64,000 bases of DNA, taken from Gammaproteobacteria bacterium. GTDB taxonomy: Bacteria; Pseudomonadota; Gammaproteobacteria; GCA-001735895. Positions 20,175 to 50,390 of the stretch are shown here, one piece after another. Where the stretch lies: positions 124,001 to 188,000 of the forward strand of contig JAOTYD010000001.1 of assembly GCA_029862005.1 (NCBI GenBank). Reading direction: 5' to 3'. The position numbers were made by a program, and so were the translations under genes. The notes under the pieces are model-generated. The model was not told the origin of the DNA. It was given only the letters and a program-made list of their open reading frames with translations, and searched no databases. Each line of letters starts with the position of its first letter. Positions within the stretch are counted from its first letter, which is position 1.

Positions 20175-20275
20175 CTGTCATACCGCGGCTTGGTCTCGGT
20201 ATCCACGGGAACAGTCGATATAGAAAACTGGGTCCCGCTATCAAGTCGCGAGACGACTATGGGATCTAGCGTCTT
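20175..20275. repeat. Family C palindromic repeat, copy C1, between convergent genes
   Basis: It begins TGTCATACCGCGGCTT, matching TGTCATCCCGCGGTTT of copy C2 at 37693 in all but two positions. The first half folds through ATACCG/CGGTAT (20080s pattern, actual positions 20180-20185 and 20197-20202). The second half has AGTCG/CGACT nested in TCCC/GGGA (about 20233-20264). It lies between two convergent genes and overlaps the end of the methyltransferase gene slightly. It may act as a two-way terminator. Confidence 0.6.
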
Positions 20276-21291
20276 CTGCGGCGACGTGAACTGCCACGGG
20301 TTTGCACTTCGTGCTGGCCGCTGGCCTGGGCCTGTGCACCTTTAGTCACTGCGCCGAGCTCGCGTTCGACATCTTCAATGCTCGGCGCAGGGCCAGGAGC
20401 AGTGCTGTCCAGTGCATGACGCATTGCCGCCACGTGTTCAGCCGTGGTGCCGCAGCAGCCACCGACGATACGCGCCCCGGCATCGCGTGCCATGGTGGCA
20501 TAACGCGCCATGATCTCGGGTGTGCCGTTGTAATGAATTTCGCCGTCGATAAATTCGGGGATTCCGCAGTTCGCCTTGGCCACGAGAATCGGGTCGCCAC
20601 TGTCGGCGGGTTTGCTGGACTGCATGTTCAGGATCGTTGCAACCACTTCGGATGCGCCAATACCACAGTTGGTACCGCAGGCGTGCACGCCCAGGCGCTG
20701 GTGCAACGCCATCACATCGGAGGCGCCAACGCCCATCATGGTGCGGCCATTGGTGTCGAAGCTCATCGTGAAAATGATCGGTAATGCGGTTTGCTGTGCG
20801 CCCTGTACCGCGTACTCGACTTCCTCCTGCGACGACATGGTTTCGATCCAGATCACATCGGCACCACCCTGCTCCAGCGCCAGTGCCTGCTCGGCAAACG
20901 CGGTAATGGCATCTTCGGCCTGCAAATCACCCAGCGGTGCGAGAATTTCGCCGGTTGGACCGATCGAACCTGCCACCACGATTTCGCGGCTGCAGCATTC
21001 GACAACTTCACGCAGTATCTCCGCTGCAGCGATATTTAACTCGGCCACTCGAGATTCGGCCTGGTGCAGTTTCAGGCGGTAACGGGTGCCGCCGAAACTA
21101 TTGGTCAGTATCAGGTCGGACCCGGCGTCGATGAATGACTGGTAATGTGTTGCTACCCGGTCGGGGAAGTCGATGTTCCATAATTCCGGAGCATCCCCGC
21201 TTTGCAGACCCATGCCAAAGAACGTCGTGCCGGTGGCGCCGTCGGCAAGCAAGGTAGCCTTTTCGCCGAGTAGTTTATCGATCCGATTCAA
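20266..21291 (-). CDS. bmt: Homocysteine S-methyltransferase (betaine-homocysteine methyltransferase-like) with Arg6 tail
   Basis: 341 residues. The Pfam S-methyl_trans barrel is intact: LADGATGTTFFGMGL at the N-terminus, ILTNSFGG, then the zinc-binding cysteines in GTNCGIG and GGCCGTT. Such proteins pass a methyl group to homocysteine, from betaine (BHMT) or, in MetH, from methylcobalamin. The C-terminal ~40 residues are outside the barrel and end in GSSRRRRRR. That tail parallels the basic tails of the corrinoid-system proteins at 43322, 44264 and 47651, so I favour the homocysteine module of a split methionine synthase, with BHMT as the alternative. It overlaps ispB by four bases. Confidence 0.85.
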   Translation of the reverse strand: MNRIDKLLGEKATLLADGATGTTFFGMGLQSGDAPELWNIDFPDRVATHYQSFIDAGSDLILTNSFGGTRYRLKLHQAESRVAELNIAAAEILREVVECCSREIVVAGSIGPTGEILAPLGDLQAEDAITAFAEQALALEQGGADVIWIETMSSQEEVEYAVQGAQQTALPIIFTMSFDTNGRTMMGVGASDVMALHQRLGVHACGTNCGIGASEVVATILNMQSSKPADSGDPILVAKANCGIPEFIDGEIHYNGTPEIMARYATMARDAGARIVGGCCGTTAEHVAAMRHALDSTAPGPAPSIEDVERELGAVTKGAQAQASGQHEVQTRGSSRRRRRR

Positions 21292-39915: not shown

Positions 39916-40030
39916 CCCGGTTTGAGTCTCTAAAATATATAGCGTGTTGTGCAGAAAACTAACTAATAATCAACAATATCCGCACCCCCTGGCAGTGTCG
40001 CGTTAAGGCAATGTGAAGTCGCTGCAGTGT

Positions 40031-40075
40031 TAGCTCAACTGCCAGTTAGAACCTATTCTCAGTAGCTTAACTGCC
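40031..40075 (+). promoter_or_regulatory. Direct repeats upstream of the corrinoid operon
   Basis: TAGCTCAACTGCC (40031-40043) and TAGCTTAACTGCC (40063-40075) match at 12 of 13 positions and are offset by 32 bases, about three helical turns. A third partial repeat, GCAGTGT at 39992 and 40024, has the same 32-base offset. Direct repeats on one face of the helix fit an AraC-family activator such as the GlxA-like proteins nearby. Confidence 0.55.
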
Positions 40076-40111
40076 TGCCTGGGCGGTTATTGAACGCGTG
40101 AGGTTTTTTTA

Positions 40112-40825
40112 ATGACAGATTACGATGACGACGACTACGACGAAGAAGACGATCTCGATTTAAGCACTCTGCCCGATGATGAACTGGTCGAGCAAATGCA
40201 TGACGATTTGTACAACGGCCTCAAGGAAGAAATAGCCGAGGGTACCGAGATTCTGCTCGAACGTGGTTGGGATGCCAACAAGGTTTTGAACGAAGCCCTG
40301 GTTGCGGGTATGACGATCGTCGGCATCGACTTCCGTGACGGCATTTTGTTCGTGCCGGAAGTCTTGATGTCAGCCAACGCGATGAAAGCCGGTATGGCGC
40401 TCCTCAAGCCTCTGCTGTCGCAATCGGACGAACCCACCGCCGGTAAGATGGTCATCGGTACTGTCAAGGGCGATATCCACGACATCGGAAAAAACCTGGT
40501 ATGCATGATGATGGAAGGTGCCGGCTTCGAGGTTGTCGATCTGGGCATCAATACGCCGGTTGAAGATTACCTGGCCGCGCTCGAGGAGCATAAGCCCGAG
40601 ATTCTCGGCATGTCGGCACTGTTGACTACTACCATGCCTTACATGAAAGTCGTCATCGATACCATGAAGGAGCAGGGAATCCGTGATGATTACATCATCC
40701 TCGTGGGTGGCGCGCCACTGAACCAGGAATTCGGTGAAGCCATCGGTGCCGATGCCTACTGTCGTGATGCAGCGGTTGCGGCCGATACCGCCAAGCAGCT
40801 CGTTGCCGAAAAGCGGGCCGGCTAG
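40112..40825 (+). CDS. Corrinoid (B12-binding) methyl-carrier protein with acidic N-terminal tail
   Basis: 237 residues. Residues 1-17 are almost entirely acidic (11 of 17 are Asp/Glu). A four-helix cap follows (about 20-105), then the Rossmann B12-binding domain with the base-off motif GDIHDIGKNL (Asp121, His123), and later SALLTTTMPYM and ILVGGAPL. It matches MtgC/MtbC/MtaC-type carriers and MetH modules 2-3. It shuttles methyl groups between donor and acceptor methyltransferases. First gene of a seven-gene operon. The acidic tail is not part of the fold and is unusual. Confidence 0.93.
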   Translation: MTDYDDDDYDEEDDLDLSTLPDDELVEQMHDDLYNGLKEEIAEGTEILLERGWDANKVLNEALVAGMTIVGIDFRDGILFVPEVLMSANAMKAGMALLKPLLSQSDEPTAGKMVIGTVKGDIHDIGKNLVCMMMEGAGFEVVDLGINTPVEDYLAALEEHKPEILGMSALLTTTMPYMKVVIDTMKEQGIRDDYIILVGGAPLNQEFGEAIGADAYCRDAAVAADTAKQLVAEKRAG

Positions 40826-40861: not shown

Positions 40862-41476
40862 ATGAAAAAATCAGACTCGATACTGGTAATCACCTGTGCT
40901 GCGATCGCGCGCGAAGTCAATGAAATAAAGAAACTCGGGCAGTGGTCGCAAATGGATCTGCAGGCTATCACCGCCGACCTGCATGCCCGACCCGAAAAAA
41001 TCCCGGCCGCGGTTGCCGACAAGATTGACCGTGCGCGCGACCAGTATGACCATATATTTGTTGCCTATGGTGATTGCGGAACCAGCGGCGAACTCGACCG
41101 GGTGCTTGAGGCGAAGGGTGTCAAGCGTTTGCCGGGCGCGCACTGTTACGATTTTCTTGCCGGACGCAAAAACTACGAGCAAATGCAGGAACAGGAACCA
41201 GGCACTTTTTACCTGACCGACTTCCTGGCGCAGCATTTTCAACGTTTGGTGATCGAGATACTGGGCATCGATCGCCATCCCGAATTACTGGAGATGTACT
41301 TCGGCAATTACACGCGCCTGGTTTACCTGGCGCAGACGGATTCGGGCGAGTTGACGAAGCTGGCGCGCGCTGCGGCCGATCAGCTGGGTTTGCGTTTCGA
41401 GCGCAAGTTCACCGGCATGGGTGAAATGGTGCCGGAACTGGATGCGGCGATGCAGGAGGCAATGTGGGGCAGATAA
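40862..41476 (+). CDS. DUF1638 family protein
   Basis: 204 residues beginning KKSDSILVITCAAIAREV. Features of DUF1638 are ITCAAIA, FVAYGDCGTSGEL and CYDFLAGR. The biochemical role is not established. It sits between the corrinoid protein and the small basic protein, and overlaps the latter by 13 bases, which ties it to corrinoid methyl transfer. Conserved cysteines (ITC, GDCG, HCYD) could bind metal or cobalamin, which is a guess. Confidence 0.85.
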   Translation: MKKSDSILVITCAAIAREVNEIKKLGQWSQMDLQAITADLHARPEKIPAAVADKIDRARDQYDHIFVAYGDCGTSGELDRVLEAKGVKRLPGAHCYDFLAGRKNYEQMQEQEPGTFYLTDFLAQHFQRLVIEILGIDRHPELLEMYFGNYTRLVYLAQTDSGELTKLARAAADQLGLRFERKFTGMGEMVPELDAAMQEAMWGR

Positions 41477-41778
41477 AAATTGTCTACTGGCGCGATATTC
41501 CCGGACAGGTCGTGGTTCGTGAAGGACGACGCAGTAAGCGGTTGCGGCTGCCGCTGCGATTCATGAAAGCGATCGAGCGCGCCGGGTATCGTCTCAGGAA
41601 AAAACAGCAGGATGCATTATTCGAGCCCTGGCACGATGTTACCCAGTCTTTTGAAGGTGACATCAATGAGCAGGCAGCGCAATTGGTACGACAGCTGGAG
41701 GAACGTTACACGGATGACGTTCTGGAAACTTTAATTCGAGCCAGCGGCGTTGACGAAACCCGTAGCCGAAACGCATGA
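41464..41778 (+). CDS. Small 'virulence factor' family protein of the corrinoid operon
   Basis: 104 residues from GTG 41464, inside the end of the DUF1638 gene. The start KIVYWRDIPGQVVVREG is the mark of the family named 'virulence factor' in databases, a name without mechanistic basis here. The protein is strongly basic in the middle (REGRRSKRLRL, GYRLRKKQQ). Its place in a methyl-transfer operon suggests an accessory role, perhaps contact with the acidic corrinoid protein. Confidence 0.78.
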   Translation: MGQIKIVYWRDIPGQVVVREGRRSKRLRLPLRFMKAIERAGYRLRKKQQDALFEPWHDVTQSFEGDINEQAAQLVRQLEERYTDDVLETLIRASGVDETRSRNA

Positions 41779-41790
41779 TCGGAGTAATCC

Positions 41791-42261
41791 TTGTATAGAT
41801 TTCGTCAATGGTCGGTTAAGCATTCGAGAAAACTGGAAGCGGTTTATCGAAACTTTGAACCGGTTTTGATCAAGCTGCACCCGATATTCAAGACGCTTGG
41901 TTACGGGCGGCTTGAGAAACCGGTGCGTGTCCTCGAGAAAACGGTAAAGGGATTAATGTTCGATTGCCAGATGTGCGGTAAATGCGCGCTTAGCGCCACC
42001 GGCATGTCCTGTCCGATGAACTGCCCGAAATCGATTCGTAATGGTCCCTGTGGTGGTGTGAGGCTCAATGGTCACTGTGAAATCAAACCCGAAATGCGCT
42101 GTGTCTGGGTAGATGCCTGGCAGGGCAGTAAGCAAATGCGGGATTCGCAGGCAATCCAGCAGGTGCAGATACCCGTCAACCATTTGCTCAAAGGCAGTTC
42201 GTCGTGGTTGCGCGTGGTACGCGACGTGTATGACGCACGTGAAAAAGAGACCGTCCAATGA
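41791..42261 (+). CDS. Methylenetetrahydrofolate reductase C-terminal (zinc-finger-like) domain protein
   Basis: 156 residues, TTG start at 41791 with GGAG upstream. A cysteine-rich stretch CQMCGKCALSATGMSCPMNCPKS...NGPCGG and a later Cys pattern match the MTHFR_C (DUF2229-like cysteine) domain that accompanies MetF-type reductases in corrinoid-using bacteria. It overlaps metF by four bases (ATGA). It probably brings an iron-sulfur or zinc site to MetF for electron transfer. Confidence 0.83.
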   Translation: MYRFRQWSVKHSRKLEAVYRNFEPVLIKLHPIFKTLGYGRLEKPVRVLEKTVKGLMFDCQMCGKCALSATGMSCPMNCPKSIRNGPCGGVRLNGHCEIKPEMRCVWVDAWQGSKQMRDSQAIQQVQIPVNHLLKGSSSWLRVVRDVYDAREKETVQ

Positions 42262-43265
42262 CCGTAACTCGCGAACCGCATTCTGGAAATCCACTGCCGC
42301 AAAAAGAAGGTCATGTTTCGACCGGCCGGCTCGAGCGGGTTTTGCGTTCCGGGAAATTCGTGGTTACCGCCGAACTGGCACCACCGGATTCCGCGCTGGC
42401 CGAAGACGTTTACGAACGCGCGCGTCTGTTTGACGGGTACGTCGATGGAATGAATGCGACCGATGGGTCGGGGGCGCACTGCCATATGTCCAGTGTTGCA
42501 ATGTGTGCATTGCTCACCAATGTCGGCTACTCGCCCGTGTTGCAGATATCCTGTCGTGACAAGAATCGCATTGCGATCCAGGGAGATGTGCTCGGGGCCG
42601 CGGCGATGGGTGTTTCCAATGTCCTGTGTTTGAGCGGAGACGGGGTTCAGGTTGGCGATCATCCGGAAGCCAAGCCGGTATTCGATCTCGACAGCATGTC
42701 GCTGCTTGAAACCATTCGCATCATGCGCGACGAATCGCGCTTCCTGAGCGGCCGGTCAATTACGTCACCACCACAACTGTTTCTCGGCGCGGCGGAGAAT
42801 CCGAGCGCCCCTCCGTTTGATTTAAGGCCTTATCGGCTGGCCAAGAAGATAGCCGCGGGTGCCCAGTTTATTCAGACACAGTATGTTTTTGATATCGATC
42901 ATTTGCGTGCCTTCATGGCAAAGTCGCATGACCTCGGATTGCTCGAGCAGTGTTTCATTATTCCGGGCGTGGGACCTCTGGCCTCGGCCCGCACCGCGCT
43001 GTGGATTCGCAACAACGTACCCGGCATCCATATCCCGGATGCAATCATAAAGCGGCTCGAGGGAGCGCAGGAACCGAAGAAAGAAGGCCGCAAAATCTGC
43101 ATCGAGCTGATTCAGCAGATCAAGGAGATCGAAGGTGTCAGCGGCGTGCATGTGATGGCCTACCGCCAGGAAGAAGCGGTCGGTGAAATCATTCAACAGT
43201 CTGGCGTGCTTGATGGGCGAGTCCCGTGGTACCCGGGTTGTGAGGTTCAGTCCAATTCTGCCTGA
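42258..43265 (+). CDS. metF: Methylenetetrahydrofolate reductase (MetF family)
   Basis: 335 residues of the MTHFR TIM barrel: KFVVTAELAPPDSA, YVDGMNATDGS, NVLCLSGDG, GAQFIQTQYVFDI and the late segment FIIPGVGPLASARTA. In this operon it could make methyl-THF for methionine or run in reverse to oxidise methyl-THF from demethylation. It is coupled to the MTHFR_C protein by a four-base overlap. The 335-residue length is longer than E. coli MetF (296). Confidence 0.9.
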   Translation: MTVTREPHSGNPLPQKEGHVSTGRLERVLRSGKFVVTAELAPPDSALAEDVYERARLFDGYVDGMNATDGSGAHCHMSSVAMCALLTNVGYSPVLQISCRDKNRIAIQGDVLGAAAMGVSNVLCLSGDGVQVGDHPEAKPVFDLDSMSLLETIRIMRDESRFLSGRSITSPPQLFLGAAENPSAPPFDLRPYRLAKKIAAGAQFIQTQYVFDIDHLRAFMAKSHDLGLLEQCFIIPGVGPLASARTALWIRNNVPGIHIPDAIIKRLEGAQEPKKEGRKICIELIQQIKEIEGVSGVHVMAYRQEEAVGEIIQQSGVLDGRVPWYPGCEVQSNSA

Positions 43266-43321
43266 ATCCGGGTTCGAATCGGTTCAAGAGTCAGAGAAGT
43301 TGATATTTTGAGGATATAACA

Positions 43322-44233
43322 ATGACAGAAACGGTTGTCAGTTCAGCTACCAGAGAATTAGTGATTGGCTTTGAGCGTCCGTTCGTACTGATCGGCGAGC
43401 GCATCAATCCAACCGGCCGTAAAATCATGGCCGACGAGATGAAGAATGGCGATTACAGCCGTGTACAAAGCGATGCCCTCGCCCAGGTTGCGGCGGGCGC
43501 ACATATGCTTGACGTCAACGCTGGTATCCCGTTGGCGGACGAGCCGCGCATTCTGGCCGAATCGATACAACTGGTGCAGAGCCTTACCGACGTACCGCTC
43601 AGTATCGACTCGTCCATCATCGATGCGCTTGAAGCCGGGCTCGCCGTCTACCAGGGCAAGGCGCTGGTTAATTCGGTGACCGGTGAAGACGAGAGCCTGG
43701 AACGGGTTCTGCCGCTGGTCAAGAAGCACGGGGCCGCGGTGGTCGCAATTTCGAACGACGAAACCGGTATTTCGGAAGATATCGACGTGCGTTATAGCGT
43801 CGCCAAAAAAATTGTTGAACGTGCCGCTGATCATGGCATTGCAGCCAGCGACGTTGTGGTCGATCCGCTGGTTATGCCGATCGGCGCGATCAACAGTGCC
43901 GGACGCGAGGTGCTCAGGTTGATCCACCGCTTGCGTACCGAACTCAAGGTCAACACGACCTGTGGTGCGTCCAACGTCAGCTTCGGATTGCCCAATCGCA
44001 ATGGTTTCAACGGTGCATTTATCAGCATGGCGATCCAGGCCGGGATGACTTCGGCAATTACCAATCCGTTGCATGCCGAAGTCGTCGCAGCGAGTCTGGG
44101 CGCCGATGTCATGCTCGGTAAGGACCCGGATTGCGCACGCTGGATCAAACATTTTCGTGAGCCTGCACCCGAGGGTAGTATGGTTCGCGGAACCGGTCGT
44201 CGTGGCGGACGTCGACGGCGCTCGGTCGCCTGA
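43322..44233 (+). CDS. Methyltetrahydrofolate:corrinoid methyltransferase (pterin-binding) with Arg-rich C-terminal tail
   Basis: 303 residues, a DHPS-like barrel of the MtgA/AcsE/MetH-module family: LIGERINPTGR, HMLDVNAGIP, SIDSSIIDALEAG, ISNDETGI and TTCGASNVSFGLPNR. It moves methyl between folate and the corrinoid. The last ~15 residues (RGTGRRGGRRRRSVA) lie outside the barrel and are strongly basic. This parallels the tails of the proteins at 20266, 44264 and 47651. A 56-base gap precedes it. Confidence 0.9.
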   Translation: MTETVVSSATRELVIGFERPFVLIGERINPTGRKIMADEMKNGDYSRVQSDALAQVAAGAHMLDVNAGIPLADEPRILAESIQLVQSLTDVPLSIDSSIIDALEAGLAVYQGKALVNSVTGEDESLERVLPLVKKHGAAVVAISNDETGISEDIDVRYSVAKKIVERAADHGIAASDVVVDPLVMPIGAINSAGREVLRLIHRLRTELKVNTTCGASNVSFGLPNRNGFNGAFISMAIQAGMTSAITNPLHAEVVAASLGADVMLGKDPDCARWIKHFREPAPEGSMVRGTGRRGGRRRRSVA

Positions 44234-44263
44234 GTTGATTCTCTGAACCCGGGTTACATTACC

Positions 44264-46285
44264 TTGGAAGAAGAAGCCAGTGTTCTGTTCATGCCCTCGG
44301 GTCTGCGTGGCCAGGTGCCAATCGGGACCACGGTACTCCAGGCAGCCCAACGCCTGGGTGTTGATCTAGAATCAATTTGCGGCGGCCAGGGTAAGTGCCG
44401 CAAGTGCCAGGTGTTACCTCAGGAAGGTGAATTTTCGAAACACGGTATTGTTTCGCGCGCCGAGCATCTTTCCGGCCTCACCGAGACCGAGCTTCATCAC
44501 CAATCCAGGAAACGCCTTAAAAACGGTCGGCGCCTCGGATGTAATGCCCGTATTCTCGGTGACCTGGTGGTCGACGTCCCCGAAGAAAGCCAGCAGCACA
44601 AGCAGCATATCGCCAAGGCAGTTACCGCCTACGATATCCAGGTCTTGCCGGCTGTACGTTTGTACACCGTGACCTTGCCAGAGCCTGACATGCATTCCCC
44701 GATTTCCGATAAACGACGCCTGCAGCAGGCCCTGGTGAAAGAACATGAATTACCCGTCATGGATTGCGAACTGTCGCAACTGCGATTGCTGCAGCCCGCG
44801 CTCGCAAAAGCCGGCCGTAAGATTACCGTGGCGGTATACCAGTTCCAGCAGATAATTGGTGTCTGGCCGGGTGAAAAAAAGGAAATATTCGGGCTGGCGG
44901 TAGATCTCGGTTCGACCACAATCGCGGCGCAGCTCTGTGACTTGTATACGGGCGAAGTGGTTGCCACGGCAGACACGATGAATCCGCAAATCCGCTTCGG
45001 CGAGGATTTAATGAGTCGCGTCTCTTACGTAATGATGAATGAGGGCGGTGACACCGCGATGACGCAGGTGGTTCGGGAAGCCTTTAACCAGCTTGCCAGG
45101 CGTGCTGCCAAGTCGGCCGGCGTACAGCCCGAGGATATCCTGGACATGACCGTGGTTGCGAATCCAATCATGCACCACCTGTTTCTGGGTATCGATCCGA
45201 CGCCGTTGGGCACCGCACCCTTCACGCTGACGACCGATCAAACCCAAGTATTGCGTGCCGCCGAACTCGATATTCAGCTGCATCCGGAAACGCGCATATG
45301 CACTTTACCCTGTATTGCCGGCCACATCGGTGCCGACACTGCCGGGGTCATCCTGTCGGAACGACCAGACCTGGCCGAGGAAAACGTGTTGCTGGTTGAT
45401 GTCGGCACCAATGCCGAAATCGTGCTCGGAAATCGCCATCGCCTGCTGGCGGCATCCAGCCCGACGGGTCCTGCCTTCGAAGGTGCCCAGATAACGTCCG
45501 GGCAGCGTGCGGCTCCTGGTGCGATCGAGCGTGTCCGCATTGATCCGGGGACACTGGAACCGAGTTTTCGAGTGATCGGATGCGATGCCTGGTCCAACGA
45601 ACCTGACTTCATGGACAAGAGTGCACGGGCCGGGGTTAGTGGTATTTGCGGATCCGGCATTATTGAAGTGGTTGCGGAAATGTTCCTCGCCGGCGTCATA
45701 GATCAGGACGGCGTGATTGGACCTGTCCCGGGTAAAAACAGCGAGCGCATTGTTAAAGATGGCCGCACCTATTCATACCTGCTGCAGGATGGCGAGCGTC
45801 CGATACGCATTACCCAGAATGACGTGCGTGCGATTCAGCTTGCCAAGGCAGCGCTGCATGCCGGGACCCGCTTGTTAATCGACCACATGGGCATCGATAA
45901 GGTCGATCGCATCGGCCTGGCCGGTGCCTTTGGCAGCCATATTGATGTCAAGTACGCGATGGTGCTGGGATTGATACCGGACTGCGATCTCGACAATGTC
46001 GGGTCGGTGGGTAACGCGGCGGGTACCGGTGCGCGAATCGCGTTATTGAATTTCCCATCACGTATTGAAATCGGTGAAATTCTGCCCAAGGTGGAAAAAA
46101 TCGAAACCGCGATAGAGCCCAAATTCCAGGAGTATTTTATTGACGCGATGGCACTGCCGCACAAAACCGATGCTTACGAGGAACTCTCGAAGGTCGTAAA
46201 ACTGCCCGCGCCCAAAGCCAAGGCTGAAGGTAGCCCGGGCGACGAACGCAAGCGCCGCTCCCGTCGTCGTCGCGATCGCAATTAG
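44264..46285 (+). CDS. RACo/RamA-like corrinoid reactivating ATPase ([2Fe-2S], ASKHA) with Arg-rich tail
   Basis: 673 residues. The N-terminal ferredoxin domain has Cys39, Cys45 and Cys48 (ESICGGQGKCRKCQV) and a later Cys (RLGCNAR). The DUF4445 ASKHA ATPase follows, with VDLGSTTIAA, DVGTNAEIVLG and GLAGAFGSH. It reductively reactivates Co(II) corrinoid, as RACo in acetogens and RamA in methylamine systems do. It ends in a basic tail, RKRRSRRRRDRN. The start is a TTG at 44264; an in-frame ATG downstream (44291) is possible. Last gene of the operon; its stop overlaps the GlxA gene's stop. Confidence 0.92.
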   Translation: MEEEASVLFMPSGLRGQVPIGTTVLQAAQRLGVDLESICGGQGKCRKCQVLPQEGEFSKHGIVSRAEHLSGLTETELHHQSRKRLKNGRRLGCNARILGDLVVDVPEESQQHKQHIAKAVTAYDIQVLPAVRLYTVTLPEPDMHSPISDKRRLQQALVKEHELPVMDCELSQLRLLQPALAKAGRKITVAVYQFQQIIGVWPGEKKEIFGLAVDLGSTTIAAQLCDLYTGEVVATADTMNPQIRFGEDLMSRVSYVMMNEGGDTAMTQVVREAFNQLARRAAKSAGVQPEDILDMTVVANPIMHHLFLGIDPTPLGTAPFTLTTDQTQVLRAAELDIQLHPETRICTLPCIAGHIGADTAGVILSERPDLAEENVLLVDVGTNAEIVLGNRHRLLAASSPTGPAFEGAQITSGQRAAPGAIERVRIDPGTLEPSFRVIGCDAWSNEPDFMDKSARAGVSGICGSGIIEVVAEMFLAGVIDQDGVIGPVPGKNSERIVKDGRTYSYLLQDGERPIRITQNDVRAIQLAKAALHAGTRLLIDHMGIDKVDRIGLAGAFGSHIDVKYAMVLGLIPDCDLDNVGSVGNAAGTGARIALLNFPSRIEIGEILPKVEKIETAIEPKFQEYFIDAMALPHKTDAYEELSKVVKLPAPKAKAEGSPGDERKRRSRRRRDRN

Positions 46286-47289
46286 CTCGCGAGGTCGGCT
46301 TCCTCGGCGGCGGATTTCTGCTGTAGTTTGCGACGCTCATCGCGTGGTGGTATACCGAACAGGTCCCGATAACATTTACTGAAATGTGGCGCAGAAATGA
46401 ATCCGCAGGCAAGCGCAATGTCGACAATCGATTTGCTGGTTTGCAGCAGTAACAGGCGCGCGCGGTTGAGGCGTAGGTTCAGGTAATATCGCGTCGGAAC
46501 GCAGTTCAGATGCTTTTGAAACAGGCGTTCGAGCTGGCGCCTCGAAATTCCGACGTAGTTGGAGAGCTCGTCGAGACTGATCGGTTCTTCGATGTTGGCT
46601 TCCATTAAAGTCACGGCCTCGGTGAGCTTGGGTTGATTCGAACCCAGTGCCAGGTGCAGGGGTATGCGCTGGCGATCGTCCGAATTGCGGATACGTTCAC
46701 ACATGAATTGTTCCGATATGTGGGTAACCAGTTTATTGCCATGACGGTCCTGGATCAGTTTCAGCATCATGTCCATCGAGGCTTGCCCGCCCGCGCAAGT
46801 AATTCGATCCCGATCAATCAGGAACAGATCATCGCTAACGTTAACCTCGGGAAATTCCTCGCGCAGGCTGGCGATGTTTTCCCAGTGAATGGTACATTTG
46901 TAGCCGTCCAGTAAACCGGCACGGGCCAGCAGGTAGCTGCCGGTGCAGAGGGCGCCGATGACGATATTGTTGCGCTTGGCGATTCGGCGCAGCGCAAACT
47001 GCAGTTGCTTGGACCAGGCATCGACGATGTCGGCGCCGCCGCAAACAAACAAAATGGACATCTCGCCGGCATTTTCGATGCTGTCGTCGGGAGTTATTTC
47101 CAGTCCGTTACTGGCCTTTTCCGGTAAACCGTCAATGGTGTAAACGCTCCAGCAATAGAGTTCCTTGCCGGCATCGCGATTGGCCATACGCAACGGTTCG
47201 ATGGCCGAGGTAAACGCAATCATCGAGTAATTTGGGACTTGTAAAAAACCGAAGTGCTCGGGTTTTGATGCGGTTTTTTCGTCAGTCAT
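46282..47289 (-). CDS. GlxA/GbdR-like AraC family regulator
   Basis: 335 residues from ATG 47289 (MTDEKTASKPEHFGFLQV). The frame is open a further 68 codons upstream, but those lie in non-coding DNA and the family B hairpin, so the longer version is rejected. An amidotransferase-like ligand domain (FVCGGADIVDA, GALCTGSYLLARAGLLDG) is followed by two AraC helix-turn-helix motifs (LSNYVGISRRQLERLF, VDIALACGFISAPHFSKCYR). It resembles GbdR, the activator of betaine/dimethylglycine catabolism. An inverted repeat precedes it. Confidence 0.88.
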   Translation of the reverse strand: MTDEKTASKPEHFGFLQVPNYSMIAFTSAIEPLRMANRDAGKELYCWSVYTIDGLPEKASNGLEITPDDSIENAGEMSILFVCGGADIVDAWSKQLQFALRRIAKRNNIVIGALCTGSYLLARAGLLDGYKCTIHWENIASLREEFPEVNVSDDLFLIDRDRITCAGGQASMDMMLKLIQDRHGNKLVTHISEQFMCERIRNSDDRQRIPLHLALGSNQPKLTEAVTLMEANIEEPISLDELSNYVGISRRQLERLFQKHLNCVPTRYYLNLRLNRARLLLLQTSKSIVDIALACGFISAPHFSKCYRDLFGIPPRDERRKLQQKSAAEEADLAS

Positions 47290-47330
47290 AGGGTTGATTG
47301 TAGCGGAGCGCGTCTCGAATTTGATCACAA

Positions 47331-47349
47331 AGTGATCAATCGCCAAAAT
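47331..47349. promoter_or_regulatory. Inverted repeat upstream of the GlxA-like regulator
   Basis: TTGATCAC-AAA-GTGATCAA is a perfect 8-bp inverted repeat with a three-base spacer, 42 bases upstream of the regulator ATG. It looks like an operator, possibly for autoregulation or for another factor. The half-site TTGATCA also occurs in the palindrome at 54307-54322. Confidence 0.6.
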
Positions 47350-47430
47350 ACTAGCCCCTAATTTCCCCCATTGCACGTCATTTTTACAGCAGACTTTGAG
47401 CCCGTCGAGGTGCCTCATCGTATGGTAAGT

Positions 47431-47554
47431 CTCTCCGAATATAGCTCGCAAAAGTGTAGCGCGGCAGGGATGCCGCGCTCCAAGCGATTCCATGGATGGA
47501 CCAACCGGCGCTTGCGCCGGTTGGGAGCGTCTTTTGCGAGCTATATCCAGAGAG
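47431..47554. repeat. Family B long hairpin repeat, copy B3
   Basis: Arms 47431-47454 and 47531-47554 pair at 22 of 24 positions around the 76-base core (47455-47530), which differs from B2 at one base. The two mismatches (C47436/A47549, A47438/C47547) are both G-U pairs in a minus-strand transcript. It sits between the mttB 3' end and the GlxA-like gene, without an adjacent family A copy. Confidence 0.88.
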
Positions 47555-47650
47555 GGCGTTCGTATAGTTTAAACGCGACGAGCGACCTGGATTTAATGCT
47601 CAGTCAAGAAACCGATCACATGTGCAGATTTGTTTCGAGGGGATGGTAAG

Positions 47651-49216
47651 TTAGACCATGGAGTCGGGCATCGAATCTTTGCGCTGCTTGATGTAGGCCA
47701 GCAGGGCTTCGTCGATATCGGGATCGAGAGGCGGTGCCTCGTACTCGTTGAGCAGTTTCTTGAAGCGCTTGTTGCAACGCTGTGCATGATCGAGACTACC
47801 CTCGGATTCCCATTGCTCGAAACTATTATTGTCGGTAATCGGTGATCGGTAGAACGCGGTTTTGAAATTATTCTGTGTGTGATTGCATCCCAGGAAATGT
47901 ACGCCGGGACCGACTTCGCGAATCGCATCCATGGCCTGGCCGTTCTCGGAGAGATCGACACCTCCCAGCAGGATTTCCATCATCGCCGCCTGATCCGCGT
48001 CCATGATGAATTTTTCATAACCCATCGCGAGACCACCCTCCATCCAGCCCGCGGTATGCAATACAAAGTTAACGCCGGCCATCACCGCGGGGTAAAGTGT
48101 GGCGGCAGCCTCGTAGGCCGCCTGTGCATCGGGTAGCTTGGAACCGCAGAGCCCGCCACCGGAACGGAATGGTACGCCGAGTCTGCGCGCCAGGGCCGCC
48201 ATGACATAAAGTACCAGCGCGGGTTCCGGAGTACCAAAGGTCGGGGCACCCGACTGCATCGACATTGAACTCGCGAAGCTGCCGAAAATAACTGGCGCAC
48301 CGGGATTAACCAGCTGTACGAAAGTAATACCGGCGAGTGCCTCGGCGAGAGACTGGGCCGCGGTGCCGGCTACGGTTACCGGTGACATCGCACCGGCAAG
48401 GATAAACGGCGTGATGATCGTGGCCTGGTTGTTTTCGGCATATACCTTGGCGGCACCCAGCATGGTATCGTCGAAGGTCATTGGCGAGTTTGCGTTGATC
48501 AGGCTGGTTGCGTAGGTGCGCGGGCGTCCGGTTTCGGGATCGATATAATTTTCACCGGCAATGATTTTGATCATTTCGACGGTATCAACCGCACGTTCGG
48601 GCGCGGTTACCGAGCCCATAAATGCCTTGTCGGAATACTTGATATGCGAGTAAACCATATCCAGGTGGCGTTTGTTGACCGGAACATCGACCGGCTCGCA
48701 AATGGTGCCACCGGAGTGATGAAGGCTTGGTGACAGGTAGGTCAGCTTGACGAAGTTTTGAAAATCCTCGAGGTTCGCGTAACGACGACCCTTGTCCAGG
48801 TCAAATACGAACGGGCTACCGTAGGCGGGAACAAAAACAGTATTTTTACCGCCAATCCGAACGCTGCGTGCCGGATTGCGCGCGTGTTGCGTGTATTCAG
48901 CCGGCGCCGAAGCCTGGATAATGGAGCGGCACAGGCCGCGGGGAAAACGAACCGTGACACCATCGACTTCGGCACCGCCTTGTTTCAGGATTTCGAGTAC
49001 CTCGGGCATATCCCGAAACTCGATGCCGACTTCCTCGAGAATGGTGTCGGCGTTGTTTTCGATAACTTGCAACCCTTCCTCGTCGAGCACCTCGAAAACG
49101 GGGATCTTGCGTTTTATGTATGGCGCACTGACGCTTTCGGTCGTGACACCAGCCCGTCGCGCGTCACGCCCGCCGCGTCCGCGTCGATTCCTGGATGCCC
49201 GTCTTGCTTCGCTCAT
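47651..49216 (-). CDS. MttB-family (non-pyrrolysine) methylamine/betaine:corrinoid methyltransferase
   Basis: 521 residues from ATG 49216, chosen for its GAGG site and family-typical start MSEARRASRN. An upstream ATG at 49261 is less likely. The N-terminal 25 residues are arginine-rich (NRRGRGGRDARR), and the trimethylamine methyltransferase barrel then follows (from about VFEVLDEEGLQVIE). No in-frame amber codon occurs, so it is the pyrrolysine-free group that includes glycine betaine methyltransferase MtgB. It likely demethylates a quaternary amine and passes the methyl to the corrinoid protein at 40112. Confidence 0.9.
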   Translation of the reverse strand: MSEARRASRNRRGRGGRDARRAGVTTESVSAPYIKRKIPVFEVLDEEGLQVIENNADTILEEVGIEFRDMPEVLEILKQGGAEVDGVTVRFPRGLCRSIIQASAPAEYTQHARNPARSVRIGGKNTVFVPAYGSPFVFDLDKGRRYANLEDFQNFVKLTYLSPSLHHSGGTICEPVDVPVNKRHLDMVYSHIKYSDKAFMGSVTAPERAVDTVEMIKIIAGENYIDPETGRPRTYATSLINANSPMTFDDTMLGAAKVYAENNQATIITPFILAGAMSPVTVAGTAAQSLAEALAGITFVQLVNPGAPVIFGSFASSMSMQSGAPTFGTPEPALVLYVMAALARRLGVPFRSGGGLCGSKLPDAQAAYEAAATLYPAVMAGVNFVLHTAGWMEGGLAMGYEKFIMDADQAAMMEILLGGVDLSENGQAMDAIREVGPGVHFLGCNHTQNNFKTAFYRSPITDNNSFEQWESEGSLDHAQRCNKRFKKLLNEYEAPPLDPDIDEALLAYIKQRKDSMPDSMV

Positions 49217-49457
49217 GGTTGGTTCCTCGTAATCCTGTCGAAGGAATTGCGAAATAAACAATCAAGTATGGTTTTTGACCATTTTAAGGGCTGATCTAAG
49301 CGCGACCCTGAACTGTTTGCCAGCGCCATATCGGTTTTTGGGAGGGCAGTGTTAGCAGTTGTGGATGCAGCTAATATCGCTAGAATGAGGTTCGAATCCA
49401 GAGAAATCAACGGAGGTTGCGGTTATCAGCGATGATCCCGAAATAATCGGTATCCTT

Positions 49458-50390
49458 TTGATCGAGGGTTACCCGATCATTCCTTTCAGCTGCGTGGTCG
49501 ATGCTTTGCGTGCGGCCAATCGTTTATCGGGCAAGAAACTTTATCAATGTGAGTACTACGCACCCGATGCCGAACCGGTATCTGCATCCTGTGGTATTAC
49601 CGTGCCTACCCGGGCACTCGCTGATGTAAAAAATTTGAAAACCCTGATCATTGTCGCACCCAACACCGCACAACATTTTGACGACGCCAATACGATTAAA
49701 CTGTTGAAGACGATGGATCGGCAGAAAGTGAACCTGGGTTCGGCAAGCTCAGGCAGCTTCATCCTCGCGCGCGCCGGCCTGCTCGATGGATGTCGTTGCA
49801 CAATACACTGGGAAAACATTCCGGTTTTCAAGGAACTGTACCCCCAGCTCGATGTTAGCTTCACACTTTACGAAATTGCCGAGCGCCGCTTCACTTGTTC
49901 CGGGGGTATCGCGGCACTCGATATGACGCTCAAGTTGATTGAAAATCAGTACGGGCGGAAACTCGCCCAGCAGATTTCACAGCAGTTTCAACACGACCGT
50001 ATCCGTACCGAGATCGATTCGCAGCAAATGGCAGATCGCATGGACCTGGCAATGAATGCGCCGAAACTTATCGATGTTATCAACCTGATGGAAAATAATA
50101 TTGAAGTGCCGCTGCCGCTGCCTGCAATTGCCGCAAAGTGTAAGCTTTCGCTGCGCCAGATAGAACGCCTGTTTCACAAGTACCGTAATGTAACGCCGAG
50201 CCAGTATTATCTGTCGTTGCGCTTGATGCATGCCAAGCAGCTTTTACTCAATACCAATCATAGCGTGATCGATATTTCGCTAGCCACAGGATTTGAAACC
50301 CAGTCCTATTTCACTGCTTGCTACCGCAAGCATTTCGGGAGTTCACCGCGTAACCATCGGTCACAGGTGGCTACCGAAATAAAAGATTAG
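49458..50390 (+). CDS. GlxA-like AraC family regulator, start unclear
   Basis: About 310 residues as given from TTG 49458. Conserved family sequence already begins upstream (IIGILLIEGYPIIPF), so the true start must be earlier. A strong GGAGG at 49412-49416 is followed, in frame, only by non-standard codons (GTT 49422, ATC 49425). The ligand domain (NLGSASSGSFILARAGLLDG) and AraC motifs (IAAKCKLSLRQIERLF, IDISLATGFETQSYF) are intact. It is divergent to mttB and 10 bases upstream of the oxidoreductase gene, so it may control both. Confidence 0.82.
   Translation: MIEGYPIIPFSCVVDALRAANRLSGKKLYQCEYYAPDAEPVSASCGITVPTRALADVKNLKTLIIVAPNTAQHFDDANTIKLLKTMDRQKVNLGSASSGSFILARAGLLDGCRCTIHWENIPVFKELYPQLDVSFTLYEIAERRFTCSGGIAALDMTLKLIENQYGRKLAQQISQQFQHDRIRTEIDSQQMADRMDLAMNAPKLIDVINLMENNIEVPLPLPAIAAKCKLSLRQIERLFHKYRNVTPSQYYLSLRLMHAKQLLLNTNHSVIDISLATGFETQSYFTACYRKHFGSSPRNHRSQVATEIKD

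Follow-up and report, generated by a model that had tools for sequence, protein, structure and literature searches.

MtgBCD has been put forward as a major pathway by which N-osmolytes are demethylated in the ocean and, when joined by MtgE, as a methionine synthase; MetH is said to be missing from most genomes that carry MtgBCD (PMC12478193, accessible text). The same accessible text reports that MtgBCD increases on glycine betaine, and its main text contains neither ‘GbdR’ nor ‘transcription factor’. Titles in its reference list name several methylated amines as substrates of MttB homologues (PMC12478193).

Operators of the GATR subfamily of AraC regulators (ArgR/CdhR/GbdR/SouR type) have been described in other settings. 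The ArgR ARG box of Pseudomonas is TGTCGCN6GNAA, present as a tandem repeat with 5-bp separation, and the second repeat is generally less conserved (PMC10963909, accessible text). The CdhR site at caiX-cdhR of P. aeruginosa is a direct repeat of GGTCGC half-sites with a 15-bp spacer (PMC5806209, accessible text). The same text describes these half-sites as closely resembling those used by GbdR, SouR and ArgR. It also describes CdhR and GbdR as activating, with CdhR additionally repressing its own basal expression. Here we report a probable operator of this known kind on a target, MtgBCD, for which a literature search of partial coverage, including the accessible part of PMC12478193, found no regulator.

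Gene layout

The window, the whole stretch of DNA that we analysed, comprises 64,000 nucleotides of a gammaproteobacterial assembly that is 97% complete. It contains an mtgC-led run of genes, an mtgB gene and two regulator genes:

40112–40825, plus strand: mtgC, corrinoid-binding protein (PF02310/PF02607, Pfam scan)
40862–46285, plus strand: remainder of the predicted operon, encoding DUF1638, PF13769, DUF5981, MTHFR, a pterin-binding methyltransferase (mtgD) and a RACo/RamA-like reactivase (Pfam scan)
46282–47289, minus strand: R1, GbdR-like DJ-1/AraC regulator (NF052371, 472.2 bits; cut-off 480)
47651–49216, minus strand: mtgB, MttB family (PF06253, 758.6 bits; promoter geometry)
49458–50390, plus strand: R2, second GbdR-like regulator, divergent from mtgB (NF052371, 302.3 bits)

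The best NCBIfam match of the 40112–40825 product is MtgC, at 218.9 bits and thus under the cut-off of 370. By Pfam domains, genes for MtgC, MtgB, MtgD, RamA and DUF1638 are all present, a set held in common with the marine MtgBCD(E) system (PMC12478193 and PMC5764234, accessible parts). MtgBCD-type genes are also linked in many loci of our wider mtgC set (best 80 of 585; see below). Spacing and shared strand suggest that mtgC-DUF1638-...-mtgD-ramA forms a single transcript. Together, the operon and mtgB likely encode a demethylase that depends on cobalamin and acts on glycine betaine or a similar methylated amine.

R1 and R2 are both DJ-1/AraC proteins in the Pfam scan, with the R2 DJ-1 match (21.3 bits) under its cut-off of 26.6. 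We call them only ‘GbdR-like’ because both fall under the NF052371 (GbdR) cut-off. We took Met 69 of the listed ORF 46282–47493 as the R1 start because in-frame stops in relatives all fall at query residues 42–67. For mtgB, the ATG at 49216 was preferred because transcription is predicted to start at or downstream of the listed TTG at 49261. A MITE-like element of ~124 bp (47431–47554), with 24-nt terminal inverted repeats that are 92% complementary, lies between mtgB and R1 and overlaps the opening codons of the R1 ORF in its over-extended form.

A conserved 21-base direct repeat before mtgC

We searched 57 genomes with the corrinoid protein and identified loci in 29 besides our own, 28 from the same genus and one from the same class. 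The genus set (n = 27) is the window plus 26 same-genus genomes with a readable upstream region. It omits two loci whose gene starts lie off the contig (L028 and L030) and one from another family (L029), which still carries TGTCGC-N15-TGTCGC.

The conserved element before mtgC (39996–40032), TGTCGC-GTTAAGGCAATGTGA-AGTCGC, is a direct repeat with a 21-base period (TGTCGC/AGTCGC at 39996–40022). Twenty-one bases correspond to two helical turns. The predicted promoter features are:

39996–40011, plus strand: putative operator box 1, TGTCGC-N6-G-N-AA (TGTCGCGTTAAGGCAA); conserved in the genus and equal to the published ArgR box consensus
40017–40032, plus strand: putative operator box 2, AGTCGC-N6-G-N-TA, 21 bases after box 1; conserved in the genus
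40030–40035, plus strand: -35-like hexamer TTAGCT (3/6 against TTGACA), overlapped by box 2; offset 34 from the operator start
40054–40059, plus strand: -10 hexamer TATTCT; offset 58 from the operator start; columns each conserved in 25–27/27

All 27 genus loci carry TGTCG[CT]-N15-[AT]GTCGC, and thus a direct repeat of the GTCGC type with a 15-bp spacer; two (L020 and L022) have TGTCGT first. In box 1, TGTCG and the AA at 40010–40011 are invariant (27/27), and the sixth base and G40008 are each kept in 25 loci, so that box 1 has the G-N-AA of the ArgR box. Box 2 keeps GTCGC at 40018–40022 in every locus, G40029 in 26/27 and one A (A40032) in 21/27. The -10 reads exactly TATTCT in 24 of the 27 loci, and the alignment from operator to -10 is ungapped. 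Column information averages 1.94 bits in the cores and 1.85 bits in the -10, as against 0.45 bits in the 40 bases upstream (27 genus loci). The promoter-proximal half-site overlaps the -35 region (box 2 ends at 40032), the arrangement of class II AraC activators, given the predicted start site.

The mtgC element thus has the same syntax as the ArgR box, with box 1 an exact match to its consensus; here, however, the target is a corrinoid methyltransferase operon and the linked regulators are GbdR-like (PMC10963909, accessible text). It resembles the CdhR site in its GTCGC-type direct repeat and 15-bp spacer, with a GATR-subfamily regulator and quaternary-amine catabolism as the likely setting, but CdhR acts from further upstream (class I), whereas box 2 here overlaps the -35 (PMC5806209, accessible text).

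The bare operator pattern is not enriched across the genome (14 matches, compared with 26 for a reversed control), and 12 of the 14 matches fall inside ORFs of at least 100 codons. A stricter pattern that includes GNAA gave two genome matches and one in the control. One of the two matches outside such ORFs (C14:38890), before a CBS-domain gene and 3.3 kb upstream of the first soxB, was rejected as a regulon site; it recurs in one of nine relatives examined.

Recurrence in wider mtgC loci

The wider set consists of the best 80 of 585 confirmed mtgC loci from a scan of species genomes, and all wider-locus counts below refer to these best 80. From the class of the named genera, we take these loci to include Alpha-, Beta- and Gammaproteobacteria. 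Seventy-nine have at least 250 bases upstream and were scored; the remaining locus (L071, 212 bases) holds a perfect pair. Three of the 80 apparently duplicate genus loci (L061/L005, L062/L008 and L063/L020).

Plus-strand GTCGC pairs that match at 9/10 positions or better occur in 50 of the 79 scored loci at spacer 15, compared with 1–7 at other spacers from 5 to 30. Perfect plus-strand pairs occur in 21/79 at spacer 15 and in 0–3 at the others. With both strands considered, 53 loci reach 9/10 at spacer 15, as against 3–14 over spacers 4–35. At 8/10 the background is high, with 19–36 of the 79 loci at other spacers and 62 at spacer 15. A plus-strand pair of 9/10 is absent from 29 of the 79 loci; these include all six actinobacterial loci of the set, which also lack an 8/10 pair. 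Among the 50 loci with a 9/10 pair, a -10 at offset 58 was found in six. The class II geometry holds firmly within the genus and weakly outside it.

We also scored 5-mers repeated at a given lag (lags 6–60), independently of any motif. This test was confined to non-coding upstream DNA because coding sequence inflates lags that are multiples of three. Lag 21 was the top lag in both sets, with 25 of the 27 genus loci (mean over lags 4.9, sd 3.8) and 46 of the 79 wider loci (mean 24.2, sd 5.6; best 80 of 585). Lag 12 came second in the wider loci (43/79, best 80 of 585), which is unexplained.

The 32-base repeats are mostly incidental

A sequence-only reading of this region had noted two repeats with a 32-base offset and attributed them to an AraC-type operator. 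Both exist exactly as noted: GCAGTGT at 39992–39998 and 40024–40030, and a longer pair with the following position:

40031–40075, plus strand: lineage-specific 13-mer pair, TAGCTCAACTGCC (40031–40043) and TAGCTTAACTGCC (40063–40075); 12/13 in 2/27 genomes only

As a string the 32-base repeat is unusual. Over lags from 13 to 100, a direct repeat matching at 12/13 or better was contained in 9 of 2000 dinucleotide-shuffled versions of the 196-bp intergenic region, and in 6 of 326 tiles of equal size cut from the window. The 13-mer repeat with a 7-mer at the same lag arose in 0 of 2000 shuffles, a composite that was defined post hoc.

That these repeats are themselves the operator is nevertheless highly improbable. 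The strings are real and rare in shuffles, but conservation in close relatives, which the reading would call for, is lacking: only the window and L002 keep 12/13, and the other 25 of 27 genus loci score 1–8/13. The two 13-mers carry 0.68 and 0.59 bits per position (27 genus loci). In the motif-free test, lag 32 is at background (5/27 genus loci, mean 4.9; 25/79 wider loci, best 80 of 585, mean 24.2). One 13-mer copy spans the spacer between -35 and -10, and the other, TAGCTTAACTGCC, spans approximately the predicted transcription start (near 40066). The first GCAGTGT shares only its final three bases with the true half-site. The proposal of a phased AraC-type operator thus survives in part. 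There is a putative direct-repeat operator of the DJ-1/AraC (‘GlxA-like’) kind at these coordinates, so that the guess at regulator type was close, but the element is the 21-base TGTCGC/AGTCGC pair and not the 32-base TAGCTYAACTGCC/GCAGTGT pair.

The same operator pattern at mtgB and soxB-2

The promoter region of mtgB contains a related pair:

49302–49328, minus strand: putative mtgB operator, TGGCGC-N15-GGTCGC; pair in 16/16 orthologues, with the 34 and 58 offsets of mtgC

It is followed by a -35-like TCAGCC (49294–49289) and a -10 CATACT (49270–49265). TG[AG]CGC-N15-NGTCG[CT] is present in every one of the 16 mtgB orthologues whose start is visible (L047 and L059, whose N-terminal end is unseen, are omitted). 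Among 12 more distant MttB paralogues, one scored 8/10 and none scored higher. The mtgB operator has no G-N-AA. In the wider mtgB promoters, 7 of 31 reach 9/10 as against 0–3 at other spacers between 8 and 22, and 23 reach 8/10 as against 5–13.

We identified a variant, TGTCGT-N15-[AG]GTCG[TG], in 9 of 28 genus soxB loci (L202, L203, L205–L209, L210 and L211; L204, a fragment, is omitted from the set), 93–171 bases upstream of the match. In L210, the copy of our own genome, the pair lies at 1333–1359 (G000 contig C17). The nine loci are one orthologous group, soxB-2, all of whose members carry the variant and are 85–100% identical to L210. The other 19 soxB loci are at most 62% identical to L210, and none carries it. 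Within ~320 bases upstream of soxB, GTCGY pairs number eight at spacer 15 and 0–1 at each of spacers 8–14 and 16–22. Because soxB encodes sarcosine oxidase, this variant suggests a link to the route from glycine betaine through dimethylglycine to sarcosine. The soxB-2 promoters have TTG at offset 34 in 9/9 and TTGAC[AT] in 7/9, which makes their -35 better than that of mtgC (three of six matches to TTGACA) or mtgB (two of six). Given this good -35, soxB-2 promoters need not depend on an activator as those of mtgC and mtgB do.

A separate pattern, GCGCC-N16-CCGAC, is common to 7 of 25 soxB upstream regions examined (L190–L192, L194–L196 and L199; L200, L203 and L215 are omitted from this count only), ~100–130 bases upstream. 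All seven belong to the other soxB orthologous group, 11 of whose 12 members were examined. On the minus strand it reads GTCGG-N16-GGCGC, a reversed GATR-like pair, and by eye its AA falls in register with that of the ArgR box.

Candidate regulator and mode of action

R1-like genes (>300 bits) are found in the flanking DNA covered, up to 10 kb on either side of mtgC, in 13 of the 79 wider loci (best 80 of 585). The pair scores 8/10 or higher in all 13 and 9/10 or higher in 10 of them, compared with 2–4 and 0–2 at spacers 13, 14, 16 and 17. Twelve of the 13 lie outside the genus, and in all 12 the regulator is nearer R1 than R2. The count omits six loci with regulator matches of 102–296 bits (L089, L091, L094, L095, L117 and L121), whose operator scores are 7, 9, 10, 9, 10 and 10. 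In each of the 17 same-genus genomes compared, mtgB is followed by R1 in the same orientation, with gaps of 84–3220 bases (G008, G009 and G014, with fragmented mtgB, and G007, without a close mtgB match, are omitted). In some genomes R1 may thus be cotranscribed with mtgB. The stretch 47301–47700, upstream of R1 itself, holds no site of at least 8/10, which counts against the reading proposed below. On these sequence comparisons R1 is the better candidate than R2 for the operator. The genome contains a third GbdR-like regulator at C8:129957–130940 (237 bits, L187), whose matched stretch is interrupted by a single in-frame TGA.

We propose that 39996–40032 is a GATR-subfamily AraC operator through which a GbdR-like regulator, most likely R1, activates the mtgC operon (class II) and mtgB. 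Conservation, spacing, promoter geometry and recurrence at mtgB and one soxB make this the probable reading, in which binding, activation, ligand, transcription start and the choice of R1 over R2 are predicted. The two direct-repeat boxes, 21 bp apart, would present one face of the DNA, and the -35 hexamer that box 2 overlaps is a poor one. With its ligand bound, the GbdR-like regulator, of which R1 (46282–47289) is the likeliest candidate, would occupy the operator and recruit RNA polymerase, and would thereby switch on mtgC-DUF1638-...-mtgD-ramA. A site of the same kind would switch on mtgB, which is followed by R1 in the same orientation. The outcome would be a glycine-betaine methyltransferase (MtgBCD) regulon.

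There is a lesser but appreciable chance that the operator is of the GATR type and that its regulator is instead R2, the third paralogue on contig C8 or an arginine-responsive ArgR-type protein. The intergenic region with the putative mtgB operator separates mtgB from the divergent R2, a third GbdR-like paralogue is present in the genome, and box 1 fits the ArgR consensus exactly. The linked genes, however, are concerned with methyl transfer and not with arginine, and the 12 linked regulators outside the genus, all beside pairs of at least 8/10, side with R1 (best 80 of 585). It is improbable that the block is a repressor operator whose bound regulator excludes polymerase at the -35. The overlap of box 2 with that hexamer would suit such a repressor, but the poor -35 boxes of mtgC and mtgB are what activator-dependent promoters are expected to have (that of soxB-2 is good), and the related CdhR and GbdR are both credited with an activating role, although CdhR in addition represses its basal expression (PMC5806209, accessible text).

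Less plausible still is an RNA element, such as a cobalamin riboswitch, as the source of the conservation. Such an element would suit an operon that encodes a B12 enzyme and has a leader hairpin (40069–40088) with some covariation. The conserved block nonetheless lies upstream of the -10 and thus outside the predicted transcript, no Rfam family reaches its gathering score in the window, and RNAalifold gives no consensus fold for the leader.

The possible hairpin is located at the 5' end of the mtgC leader and has 86.5% of cells paired over 27 sequences, a value reached by 1 of 500 shuffles (their mean is 82.3). In four of its six pairs both partners have changed, a number that 95 of 500 shuffles also reach, and slid versions give 29–62%; the hairpin was picked from the window's own sequence.

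A link to methionine synthesis

With a MetH profile we found no full-length MetH in the genome; of seven partial matches, the best two are mtgC and mtgD. There are six S-methyltransferase matches, the best of which (20266–21291, minus strand) is a candidate MtgE. We do not claim MtgC as the only methionine route because MetE-like domains are present elsewhere (C1:249446 and C2:181523). Tentatively, one GATR operator could tie the MtgC hub to osmolyte sensing in many Alpha-, Beta- and Gammaproteobacteria, and in those without metH, apparently including this one, methionine synthesis might come under glycine betaine-type control. The conserved operator offers a concrete target for mutation and a candidate regulator, and it opens the question of how methyl-group catabolism is balanced against methionine synthesis.

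Charged tails on MtgC and its partners

Charged tails are encoded at the MtgC N-terminus (40112–40190), the MtgD C-terminus (44170–44233), the RamA C-terminus (46220–46285), the MtgB N-terminus (49160–49216) and the C-terminus of the MtgE candidate (20266–20330). The MtgC tail is strongly acidic, with a net charge of -4 or lower in 25 residues in 73 of the 80 wider loci and a median of -10 (best 80 of 585). An RRR motif occurs in the last 25 residues of 47/52 MtgD, 42/48 RamA-like and 15/18 MtgE-like proteins of the wider loci; it is present in 0/69 DUF1638, 0/24 MTHFR, 0/30 MtgB, 1/17 R1-like and 2/80 MtgC proteins (best 80 of 585).

RR is found near the N-terminus of MtgB in 31/32 wider loci and near those of 14/70 DUF1638, 7/27 MTHFR, 11/55 MtgD, 22/49 RamA-like and 14/80 MtgC proteins (best 80 of 585). 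In the genus it is present in 16/16 mtgB orthologues and 30/30 MttB paralogues with a visible N-terminus, where start codons are unfixed and the stretch may run slightly upstream. A literature search of partial coverage found nothing on such tails. The genome encodes six MttB-type genes (E-value of 1e-100 or better) and one MtgC match. The tails suggest charge-coded docking of many clients on one shared corrinoid/B12 carrier, a pattern that may carry more weight than the operator itself.
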